From Pseudanabaena sp. PCC 7367 (GTDB taxonomy: Bacteria; Cyanobacteriota; Cyanobacteriia; Pseudanabaenales; Pseudanabaenaceae): a DNA stretch of 64,000 nt. Location of the stretch: positions 310,001 through 374,000 of the forward strand of contig NC_019701.1 in assembly GCF_000317065.1 (NCBI RefSeq), written 5' to 3'. The notes under the pieces were generated by a model. It was given only the letters and a program-made list of their open reading frames with translations, searched no databases and was not told where the DNA came from. Positions 10,806 through 14,788 of the stretch are shown here, one piece after another. The stretch's first letter is position 1, and each line of letters starts with the position of its first letter. The position numbers and the translations under genes are program-made.

Positions 10806-12752
10806 ATGCTCAACCAATTTTGGCATCATCCCAATCAAGTCTGGCAGAAATATCGGCGATCGCTTACTACCACCATGTCAATCCTGGCAGTATCCGGGGT
10901 GATTTTATCGCTGCGTAGCATTGGTGCGCTGATGCCGTTGGAGCTAAAGGAATGGGACTATTTATTGCGATTGCAGCCAAAGCAGGCAACTAGCGATCGG
11001 ATCACGATCGTCGAAATCAGCGAACTCGATCTGCAACAGCGGGGTGAATGGCCCTGGCAAGATCAAGCCTTTGCCCAATTAATTGAAATTATTGATGCCG
11101 CTGATCCGGCTGTAATTGGGATTGATAAATATCTAGATATTCCCGTGGGTTCGGGGCGCGCCGAGTTAATTGCAGCGCAGGCTAAAGCTGGTAATGTGGT
11201 GAATGCAACGCTGTTATCCCTTGACCGAGCTGAGACCGTAGAACTACCACCGGATCTAGCGGCGGTAAGTAGTTATGGTTTCGTGAACGTGCCCAAGGAT
11301 GCGGGCGAGGTGGTGCGGCGAGCGCTTTTGGTGGCTGACTATGAATCATTCGCCTTCACGATCGCTCAGGATTATCTAATCCAGCACGATATTAAAATTA
11401 TATTTGATCCCGATCGGGTTGAATTTGCCATCCATGGCCCTGCTGGTAAGCGAGTGATTCCCCGCCTCGATCCTAACTATGGTGGATATCACAAAATTGA
11501 TGCCAATGGCTATCAGGTGATGCTTAATTATCGCGGCGCACCTGGCTCATTTAGGCATGTTTCAGCGGTGGATGTATTGTCAGGGCGATTGCATCCCGAT
11601 CTATTCCGCGATCGAATCGTGTTAATTGGCATTACCGCGATCAGCGTCAATGATTTTCATCCCACGCCCTTTAGTTTGGGTGAGCATGTGATGTTTGGCG
11701 TGGAAATCAATGCCCACATCATTGATCAGATTTTAGCTGCTGCATTGGACGATCGACCATTTATTCAAGCTGCACCTGATTATGCCGAAGCAATCTGGAT
11801 TTTGGTCTGGACTGCCGCTGGCGCGATCGCCGCTGCCCTGATTCCCAATACCTTCAAAAAACTGGGCGTGTTGGTAGTTTTATGCCTGAGCCTGGTTGCA
11901 GTTGTTTATTTGGCCTTTAGCCAAGCCTGGTGGCTGCCCTTCTTTCCGGCGATTCTGGGTTTAGCGATCGCCCACGGTTTGGTCATAACTGCCGAATATA
12001 CCCAATCGCAAGCCGATCGCCAATTATTAGTTAGCCTCTTTTCGCGGCATGTGTCATCGGAGCTAGTGGAGCTAATCTGGCAGCATCGTGATCAGTTTTT
12101 AACCGAAGGGCGGATTGTTGGCCAAGAAGTATTTGTAACGGTTTTATTTACAGATATGCGTAATTTCAGCACCACCGCCGAAGTGCAGCCGCCCCACGAG
12201 GTGCTCTGGTGGTTGAATGAATATCTGGGCACGATCGCCACTGAGGTTCTGGCACACGGTGGCATGGTGGATAAATATATTGGTGATTCGGTGATGGCTG
12301 TGTTTGGCGTGCCCATTCCCCACCGCCATGCATCGGAATGGCAGCAGGATGCCGATAATGCGATTACTGCGGCGATCTCGATCGGCCAAAAGCTCCAGGC
12401 CATGAATCAAGTTTGGCAAGCCCAGGGACGACCAAATATTGTCACTGGCATTGGGGTTAATTCCGGCAAGGTGATCGCCGGTAGTATTGGCAGCACCGCC
12501 CGAATGGAATATTCAGTGGTGGGGGATGTGGTGAATATTGCGGCGCGACTGGAGAACTTGAATAAACAGGTAGATGGCGGCGAGTACCATATTTTGATTG
12601 GTGCGGAAACGGCAGATTTACTCACCCCACAATCTTTTGAGCTTGACTTTGTCGGTGATTATGCACTGAAGGGACGGTGTCAGGAAACTCCGGTATATAG
12701 GGTCTTGGGGCATGTGGAGGAGGCCACCAAGCAACCAGAAGCTGAGATATAG
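10806..12752 (+). CDS. CHASE2 sensor adenylate/guanylate cyclase
   Basis: 648 residues. An N-terminal membrane helix (about 22-42) leads to an extracytoplasmic CHASE2 domain (about 60-310, including TIVEISELDLQQRGEWPW and GIDKYLDIPVG), then three C-terminal helices (about 330-400) and a class III cyclase domain (about 435-630). The metal-binding aspartates are in TVLFTDMRNF (near 448) and DKYIGDSVMAVFG (near 492); VVGDVVNIAARLE supplies the transition-state Asn and Arg. The Lys of DKYIGD favours ATP as substrate (inference). It would make cAMP in response to an outside signal. ATG start; no partner genes. Confidence 0.93.
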   Translation: MLNQFWHHPNQVWQKYRRSLTTTMSILAVSGVILSLRSIGALMPLELKEWDYLLRLQPKQATSDRITIVEISELDLQQRGEWPWQDQAFAQLIEIIDAADPAVIGIDKYLDIPVGSGRAELIAAQAKAGNVVNATLLSLDRAETVELPPDLAAVSSYGFVNVPKDAGEVVRRALLVADYESFAFTIAQDYLIQHDIKIIFDPDRVEFAIHGPAGKRVIPRLDPNYGGYHKIDANGYQVMLNYRGAPGSFRHVSAVDVLSGRLHPDLFRDRIVLIGITAISVNDFHPTPFSLGEHVMFGVEINAHIIDQILAAALDDRPFIQAAPDYAEAIWILVWTAAGAIAAALIPNTFKKLGVLVVLCLSLVAVVYLAFSQAWWLPFFPAILGLAIAHGLVITAEYTQSQADRQLLVSLFSRHVSSELVELIWQHRDQFLTEGRIVGQEVFVTVLFTDMRNFSTTAEVQPPHEVLWWLNEYLGTIATEVLAHGGMVDKYIGDSVMAVFGVPIPHRHASEWQQDADNAITAAISIGQKLQAMNQVWQAQGRPNIVTGIGVNSGKVIAGSIGSTARMEYSVVGDVVNIAARLENLNKQVDGGEYHILIGAETADLLTPQSFELDFVGDYALKGRCQETPVYRVLGHVEEATKQPEAEI

Positions 12753-12975: not shown

Positions 12976-13092
12976 TTAAAAAATGCCTACCAGTACCACA
13001 AAGACAATTACGCAGAGCGCCAGGATCGAAAACAGGATCAAATCAAAAGTCGTTTCCTGATGTCTAATTTCGACTGGGGTTGGATGAGTCAT
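12976..13092 (-). CDS. 38-residue single-span membrane protein
   Basis: A short frame with a strong translation start: GAGGAG lies seven bases upstream of ATG (13090-13092). The product opens with a polar segment, MTHPTPVEIRHQETTF, followed by one hydrophobic helix (about residues 17-38, DLILFSILALCVIVFVVLVG) ending at the C-terminus. Size and topology resemble small photosynthetic or NDH-1 subunits, but it matches none I can recall (not PsbM/T/X, PetL/M/N, PsaI/M). It is surrounded by noncoding DNA on both sides. I do not recognise the family; that it is translated is inferred from the ribosome site and helix. Confidence 0.6.
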   Translation of the reverse strand: MTHPTPVEIRHQETTFDLILFSILALCVIVFVVLVGIF

Positions 13093-13369
13093 GGTTTTAC
13101 TCCTCAAAATCTAATTCTATTGTAGAAAATTACGCGAGGCGATCGGGTCTAAAAAACACTGCAATAGTTAAATTTAATTAATCGTGAGAAAAATTAAACA
13201 TGTAAATCCCGTAGTCTAGATTAGAATGTGCATATTAAGACTAAGCAGTTAGGCAATTACTACAGTGCAGCATAACAGTAGCATTTCTTTTCTAAATAAG
13301 CTGTAGTAAGTCATACTAAGTTAGCTAATTGATTCGGTAAGTTGATTTCAACATAAACTGGCAAGCAAT

Positions 13370-13403
13370 CAACACCTAGCAATACCTAACAATACCTAAC
13401 AAT
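13370..13403. repeat. 10-bp tandem repeat
   Basis: caacacctag, caatacctaa, caatacctaa, caat: three full units (the first imperfect) and a partial one, in noncoding DNA. Confidence 0.9.
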
Positions 13404-13455
13404 CAAGAACCAGAGCGTCTGCTTTAGCCCTCTTACTTTTAATTATTAAGTTAAT

Positions 13456-13494
13456 TGTAAATTTAAAGTGTAAGTTCAAATTGTAAGTTTAAAG
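13456..13494. repeat. 13-bp imperfect tandem repeat
   Basis: Three diverged units: tgtaaatttaaag, tgtaagttcaaat, tgtaagtttaaag. Noncoding, downstream in the same long gap. Confidence 0.8.
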
Positions 13495-14317
13495 GCTGGT
13501 TAAGCATTGTAAATCTAAATTCGGGGAGCACTCAATCACAAGAATTATGATGGATATTGCTCAGACCACCTAAATACTTTGCGGAGATGGCAAGTTATTT
13601 TAAATTGGTTAAGTGATATACATTAGTGTTTAGGTGCACTGTTATATTGACGTTAGGGTATTTAAGCATGAGCTTAAAACTGGTGCCAGGATATTTTTAG
13701 AATATTTATGAAAGCTGGTTATTTGCATTTCGCCAACTAGGATTCACCGAAATCATGCTTGATCATCGGCATCAGTAATCAGCATTAGTAATCAGCTACC
13801 GATTATTGATAGGGGAATGTTTCTAGTATCTAGAGCCAATGATTAACAAACATAACTTTAGGTATAAAAGATCTTAAATAGGATCTAAACCTTTGGCTGG
13901 TTATGCTCCTGAAATTTGGTAACTTAAACTAAGCCAAATATAGTTTGCTTAGAAATAGCTTTATATGGGGGGCTAATTACTTACTGAGCCAAACTACCAA
14001 TTCATTTTGGCTCATCACTATGGCGAAGATATTTTAGAAGTATCTAGCTAAGCTTGATTAAAATGGCTGTTTGATAATGAACCAAGTTTTCAGGATCAAA
14101 GTAGCCAATGACTTAAGACTGGGGGGGGAACAATATAAGATTTTTGAACCTATGGTGGGTATCCATCATGGTTGAGTCTGTATGTAACTAATTGCAGCAA
14201 TATTTCCGCTGGCACAACAATCAAGGTCGCCGATCGCGGAAAGTATCAGCAGCATGGATGTTTGTTACCCGATTGCTAATTCATTCGTAACTAACAACTA
14301 TCCCAAACGTTCACTTC

Positions 14318-14788
14318 ATGCGCAATAAACCTGAGACGATCAACATATTAGTAGCAGAGAATGATCCGGCCGATCGGCTACTAATTCATAAATCCCTGGC
14401 TGAAAGAGAGGAAAACTTTAACATTCACTTTGTGACCAATGAAGCAGAGTTACTGGCATATTTATATCACCGGGATCAATATGCTAAACCGGCTAGCTCG
14501 CCAACTCCGCATTTGATTTTATTGGATCTAAATTTGCCCCATCGAGGCCAAAAAGCAGCGCTAGAGGAAATTAAAGCACATCCCCAGTTAAAGCTTATTC
14601 CGGTAATTGGTCTCACCCCAACCCAAAGCGATAAAGAGCTTTTCTGTAATTATCAGCCTGGTGGTAGTTCATATATATCAAAACCAACCTGCTTTGAAGA
14701 AATGGTTGATTTATTGGAAATAATCGATCGCTATTGGTTTGAATTGGTCAAATTACCCGATCGGCGATTAATTGATTCCTTTGAATAA
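14318..14788 (+). CDS. Response regulator, Rcp1-like single receiver
   Basis: 156 residues formed by a lone receiver domain. INILVAENDPADRLLIHKSL gives the acidic pocket, D at LILLDLNLPHRG is the phosphorylation site, VIGLTPT supplies the Thr, and SYISKP the Lys. The long HLILLDLNLP segment with an inserted loop before it resembles Rcp1-type regulators that receive phosphate from cyanobacterial phytochrome histidine kinases. No kinase gene is nearby, so the partner is unknown. ATG at 14318; the preceding region is a long noncoding gap. Confidence 0.88.
   Translation: MRNKPETINILVAENDPADRLLIHKSLAEREENFNIHFVTNEAELLAYLYHRDQYAKPASSPTPHLILLDLNLPHRGQKAALEEIKAHPQLKLIPVIGLTPTQSDKELFCNYQPGGSSYISKPTCFEEMVDLLEIIDRYWFELVKLPDRRLIDSFE

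Follow-up and report, generated by a model that had tools for sequence, protein, structure and literature searches.

The window, that is the whole stretch of DNA analysed, comprises 64,000 nucleotides of Pseudanabaena sp. PCC 7367; the genome searched holds 4,885,680 bases in two contigs, the main one of 4,557,046. Between a CHASE2 cyclase gene that ends at position 12752 and a response regulator gene that begins at 14318 lies a gap of 1,565 bp, in which the minus strand of the window, from 13092 to 12976, encodes MTHPTPVEIRHQETTFDLILFSILALCVIVFVVLVGIF. The ORF opens with ATG (13092-13090), closes with TAA (12978-12976) and counts 38 codons. The features at this locus are:

12976..13092, minus strand: 38-codon gene, the stop being included in the coordinates; polar head at residues 1-16, hydrophobic helix at about residues 17-38, C-terminus LVGIF

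13100..13105, minus strand: Shine-Dalgarno site GAGGAG (CTCCTC on the plus strand), exactly 7 nt upstream of the ATG

13119..13124, minus strand: TACAAT, a possible -10 element, weak and unproven, beginning 32 nt before the ATG

The original prediction was correct in sequence and coordinates, in placing GAGGAG seven bases before the ATG and in calling the gap large. A consensus promoter scan reported no promoter at the TACAAT. No Rfam family reached its gathering threshold anywhere in the window, and the remainder of the gap (window 13125-14317, about 1.2 kb) holds short ORFs only, without Rfam match.

ORFs of such length commonly arise by chance: 49 ORFs of at least 30 amino acids overlap a stretch of 6.5 kb. 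The combination of features is far rarer. When the gap was shuffled under a Markov model, an ATG-initiated ORF of 30-60 amino acids with a Shine-Dalgarno-like site and a strong hydrophobic stretch (19-residue Kyte-Doolittle mean of at least 2) appeared in one of 300 copies, and the real gap contains exactly one ORF of this kind, the 38-residue one. On the comparisons described below, this frame is a real protein-coding gene; it is conservation that settles the question.

A search with the single sequence in 58 genomes yielded a credible relative in each of two genomes, G052 (E = 2.9e-4) and G004 (E = 8.9e-4), both being 38-residue ORFs with a good ribosome site and a C-terminal L-x-GIF; matches in G001, G026 and G030 from the same-family search are fragments of other frames and not homologues. 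The original prediction had looked to close relatives for conservation of frame, start and ribosome site, and on this point the outcome is mixed. Among the 34 other same-family genomes a true homologue occurs in just one, G004; where the gene is present, its frame, length, start and C-terminus are kept and the ribosome site varies in strength. An iterated profile applied to the whole class gave 19 matches at E<=0.01, from which members were accepted in 14 of 388 genomes, all of 37-38 amino acids and with the conserved C-terminus. Five matches were excluded, those in G277 and G356 lying inside longer frames unlike the members and those in G280, G312 and G228 belonging to a family of about 50 residues, termed NHAPY here.

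The family is far more frequent in the genome family f32, where 57 of 126 genomes matched the profile at E<=0.001 (51 strong and stop-free, three intact but divergent, one with stops and two of another family) and 54 were kept as carriers; ORFs were translated for 15 of the 51 strong matches and for all six doubtful ones, and G428 and G458 were dropped since their matches belong to the family of about 50 residues. In f32 the listed carriers seem on the whole to have larger genomes than non-carriers, judging by the 20 of 69 non-carriers that were listed. In family f16 the profile matched seven of 42 genomes. Across the phylum, 15 of 386 genomes matched at E<=1e-4, every one of them within the window's own class, and this search added family f45 with an intact 38-residue ORF. 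Altogether, the protein profile led to intact, equally long ORFs in six genome families.

A scan of named genomes with the patterns DHS[VI]GN and CG[LI]T retrieved 63 Nostocales loci, and the carriers include Nostoc, Desmonostoc, Fischerella, Chlorogloeopsis, Scytonema, Tolypothrix, Brasilonema, Calothrix and others; these named carriers appear to be mostly terrestrial, benthic or symbiotic. All but one of these loci (62 of 63) are intact, with an ATG start and 37 or 38 codons; the remaining one has in-frame stops. The copy with in-frame stops reads identically at G436:C89:70183-70287 (L195), the f32 match with stops, and at L176, which is titled Brasilonema angustatum, and it is apparently a decayed gene. 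Beyond the phylum, the searches comprised one scan with the Nostocales patterns, one earlier pattern scan and the plasmid and phage records. The earlier scan, made on named genomes with alignment A1, returned 270 stretches, none of which was confirmed. There was no tblastn match in plasmid records to one query, a Nostocales member, and none in phage records to one query, the window protein.

The place of the window copy in this family was examined with profiles that leave it out. With a profile lacking both the window sequence and its two nearest relatives (A6), the window ORF was the sole match in its genome at E<=10 (E = 9.6e-5), and with one that retained those two relatives (A4) it was the best of three (E = 4.7e-6; the next at 0.084); some circularity resides in these values, as the other members were first reached via a profile containing the window sequence. 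The Nostocales-only profile (A5) ranked an accepted member first in each of seven other genomes tried and placed the window ORF fifth in its own genome (E = 2.0). As this profile fails to single it out, the window copy is to be counted among the divergent members. It shares the length of 38 residues, the helix running to the C-terminus and the L-x-G-x-[FW] ending, and lacks the full C-x-x-T found in mid-helix of many members, having C27 and, where most members have T, V30. Position 27 is T or F in the members from f16, so C-x-x-T is not a strict feature of the family.

The general layout is a polar N-terminal head that varies between members, followed by a juxtamembrane motif rich in D, E, H and S (HDES; in Nostocales DHS[VI]GN) and one hydrophobic helix to the C-terminus. 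The ending is nearly always L-x-G-x-[FW]; two divergent members end in GIV and GIL. AlphaFold2, run on a 13-row alignment, predicted one helix at residues 7-37, with low confidence in the head and a mean pLDDT of 97 over residues 21-30 and 94 over 31-38. In the window protein the 19-residue Kyte-Doolittle mean peaks at 3.3. The protein terminates with the helix and has no polar tail, its C-terminus lying within the membrane or at its border, and insertion of the microprotein into a membrane is strongly implied.

Selection was analysed in Nostocales, with the 53 of 60 sequences that are 38 amino acids long. The median dN/dS was 0.23 over the 1095 of 1378 pairs with dS of 0.2-1.5, these pairs not being independent of one another. 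Differences were distributed over the three codon positions as 12987:4326:20313. The head (codons 1-11) varies with hardly any constraint, the residues encoded by codons 12-17 scarcely change at all and the helix falls in between; the invariance of DHS[VI]GN and CG[LI]T is partly built in, as the loci were fetched by those very patterns. The substitutions demonstrate that in Nostocales the frame codes for protein and is subject to purifying selection. The original prediction, which took a polar head plus a single hydrophobic helix to make a genuine small protein likely, is backed by homologues, purifying selection and predicted structure.

Of the 14 members from across the class, most are preceded by sites comparable to GAGGAG. 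Outside f32, where 11 of these members lie, the majority have a strong ribosome site; in f32/Nostocales the site is weaker and of a GGGT type. A TATAAT occurs upstream of the gene in 47 of 59 Nostocales sequences, against 3.6 expected, and in 45 of these 47 it begins 39-43 nt before the ATG, a fixed position; the Nostocales gene is thus probably driven by its own promoter. Another upstream block, AATCAA[GAC]T, was seen at -130 to -60 in 21 of 59 sequences (0.9 expected), 18 sequences having been aligned, and is possibly an activator site. The NtcA motif was present in 10 of 59 Nostocales upstream regions versus 5.1 in shuffles, HLR1 was in no clear excess and TCCGGA was found in none of the 59, and no clear regulator emerged from these motifs.

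Gene neighbourhoods gave no common partner. At the 14 loci from across the class, different lineages have no orthologous neighbour in common; the neighbours that are shared belong to members of a single genus (g50) or to a pair of f32 genomes. In Nostocales the surroundings are more regular, with a sucrose synthase gene lying on the other strand at 51 of 63 loci (median 578 bp upstream) and a DUF4359 gene following in 40 of 63, these two identities resting on one Nostocales example each. In G004 the adjoining gene is a convergent GH100 invertase. An ABC-ATPase gene lies within about 8 kb at five loci (G380, G313, G195, G329 and G052); the proteins match one another at 24-36% and are read as unrelated members of the superfamily, as their Pfam domain make-up and length differ. 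A pentapeptide-repeat protein, encoded about 5 kb from the window gene, is common to the window and G052 regions, which we take as chance.

The microprotein has no significant match in Pfam, NCBIfam or PHROGs. The original prediction named no counterpart, and indeed none of the curated families in the searched libraries includes it. Against all PDB chains, the family profiles gave ActG (E = 0.11) and a PsbT fragment (E = 1.0) as best hits, none significant, and no NDH-1 chain at E<=10. The similarity to small subunits of photosynthetic or NDH-1 complexes, likewise suggested at the outset, holds only for size and shape: PsbT, PsbM and other single-helix subunits of the photosystems, b6f and NDH-1 are alike in these respects, and the PsbT fragment ESVAYILI resembles the microprotein's motif and helix start (E of about 1), whereas significant PDB, Pfam or NCBIfam matches to such subunits are missing. 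The literature searched, mostly at listing level, gave no description that we recognised as this family, for which 'undescribed' stays provisional; the same applies to the available parts of a proteogenomic study of Nostoc 7120 (PMC8557916) and of a review (PMC7760959). The 37-38-residue family thus lies outside the family libraries searched and appears to be new among cyanobacterial microproteins.

The described protein closest in kind is SliP4/HliR1 of Synechocystis which, according to two papers (PMC5126843, PMC12850537), has 37 residues and one predicted transmembrane region and was absent from the original annotation. It helps NDH-1 to associate with the photosystems in high light (PMC12850537), the kind of role proposed below for the microprotein, so that the two may be viewed as functional analogues. 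They are not the same protein. The termini of SliP4, MSNLIAVAF...KTSLNLPE, deduced from published primers (PMC5126843), indicate a hydrophobic N-terminus and a polar C-terminal tail, whereas the window family, compared with SliP4 by the termini alone, has the reverse polarity of polar head and hydrophobic C-terminus; identity was rejected on this ground. The SliP4 gene moreover lies upstream of sodB, while the window gene has the CHASE2 cyclase and the response regulator as neighbours, and its authors found no homologues of SliP4 outside Synechocystis (PMC5126843). Norf4 (PMC5126843) is likewise a small single-helix cyanobacterial protein of unknown function; with 31 amino acids and primer-deduced termini MTADQLL...MGSFAKGG it is without the L-x-G-x-F terminus of the window family, and identity was again rejected on the termini.

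The NHAPY family deserves separate mention. Its members, of about 50 residues, follow the pattern MKPMIW...NQYL..NHAPY...helix...L-x-G-x-F (alignment A3; G280 L054/L099, G312 L055, G228 L070 and others), and three of them scanned against NCBIfam had no match. Matches at E<=0.01 were obtained in 57 of 388 class genomes, a few being weak or cross-matches to the 37-38-residue family, as in G052. Both families have the same helix and C-terminal L-x-G-x-F, the NHAPY family having the longer head; a profile-profile comparison gave a probability of 96 (E = 3e-9) over 23 columns, a score inflated by helix composition. They co-occur in G318, G093, G240 and G329 and, being present in the same genomes, are not alternatives of one gene. 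At one locus (G280, L099: 6301-12858) the NHAPY gene is followed on the same strand by a presumably hydrolase-like ORF, by one that resembles sucrose synthase (55% identity with Nostoc SusA) and by a third that is presumably a fusion of a GH65 phosphorylase with a phosphomutase. It is conceivable, with the balance clearly against it, that both families are branches of one undescribed 'L-x-G-x-F tail' superfamily, whose members would serve as exchangeable, clade-specific accessory helices tuning one shared electron-transport complex in many cyanobacteria. Such a superfamily would have been overlooked because its genes have some 40-50 codons and often stand alone in gaps.

What, then, does the microprotein do? 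A long gap may be expected to hold a short transcript, and the locus could in principle be a regulatory RNA across which a frame is open by chance; the third-position bias of substitutions and the purifying selection, the recurrence of intact, equally long ORFs in six families and the absence of any Rfam match in the window leave this reading next to no probability. As a peptide, it might be induced by stress and act without partner on the lipid bilayer, in a toxin-like or membrane-modulating manner. The single hydrophobic helix, the stand-alone gene and the patchy presence would all suit such a role, which we nevertheless consider unlikely, as the conservation of residues that are polar or small (D, S, C, T, G, F) points to a specific interface and no antitoxin-like gene is conserved alongside.

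Two readings name a partner. A function in sucrose metabolism, for instance as membrane anchor or regulator of sucrose synthase, is suggested by the opposite-strand synthase gene of Nostocales and by the invertase gene of G004. However, sucrose synthase is absent (E<=1e-60) from seven of the 14 carrier genomes, two of these incomplete, and in the window genome its gene lies about 113 kb from that of the microprotein; the Nostocales synteny can reflect shared ancestry and be treated as an inherited position. The absence of susA from half of the carriers led us to reject sucrose metabolism as a general partner, and this role is judged highly improbable. Equally poor prospects attach to a cyanobacterial counterpart of subunit IV of aa3 cytochrome c oxidase (COX4_pro_2, PF07835), a single-helix accessory subunit of similar length with an identical layout of polar head and one C-terminal helix. 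The three PDB sequences that the window protein matched at E<=10 all belong to this subunit (E of 0.41-1.5), the alignment running through EIRHQETTF / DIRHQQATF, and PF07835 scored it at E = 0.82. This score amounts to 10.4 bits against a gathering cut-off of 22, and the short motif likeness is confined to the window copy, one of 13 family members. Applied to eight genomes, six of them carriers, PF07835 found neither the window locus nor any family member, and no oxidase gene is among the scanned neighbours of the window gene. As the 12 other aligned members are without the likeness and the Pfam model misses the locus, subunit IV was rejected, and we hold a relationship to it to be very unlikely.

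We lean, by a modest degree, to the reading that the gene encodes a genuine single-pass membrane microprotein of cyanobacteria, 37-38 residues long and specified by a single gene, which docks on a larger membrane complex as an accessory or regulatory subunit. A short monocistronic message would be translated into the peptide, the helix of which would insert into the thylakoid or plasma membrane and, judging by its shape and by analogy, pack against the larger complex as a dispensable subunit. The single homologue among same-family relatives argues against an essential core subunit, and the patchy presence speaks for conditional tuning. Many characterised cyanobacterial microproteins of similar size serve photosynthetic or respiratory electron-transport complexes, and it is solely for this reason that such complexes are the prior choice as candidate partner.

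With this family, a conserved set of concrete sequences joins the few small membrane proteins so far listed for cyanobacteria, and the gene is carried by culturable genera such as Nostoc, Fischerella, Chlorogloeopsis and Calothrix. Should an electron-transport complex indeed contain the microprotein as a facultative subunit, such complexes would bear clade-specific accessory helices that are invisible in structures obtained from strains without the gene.
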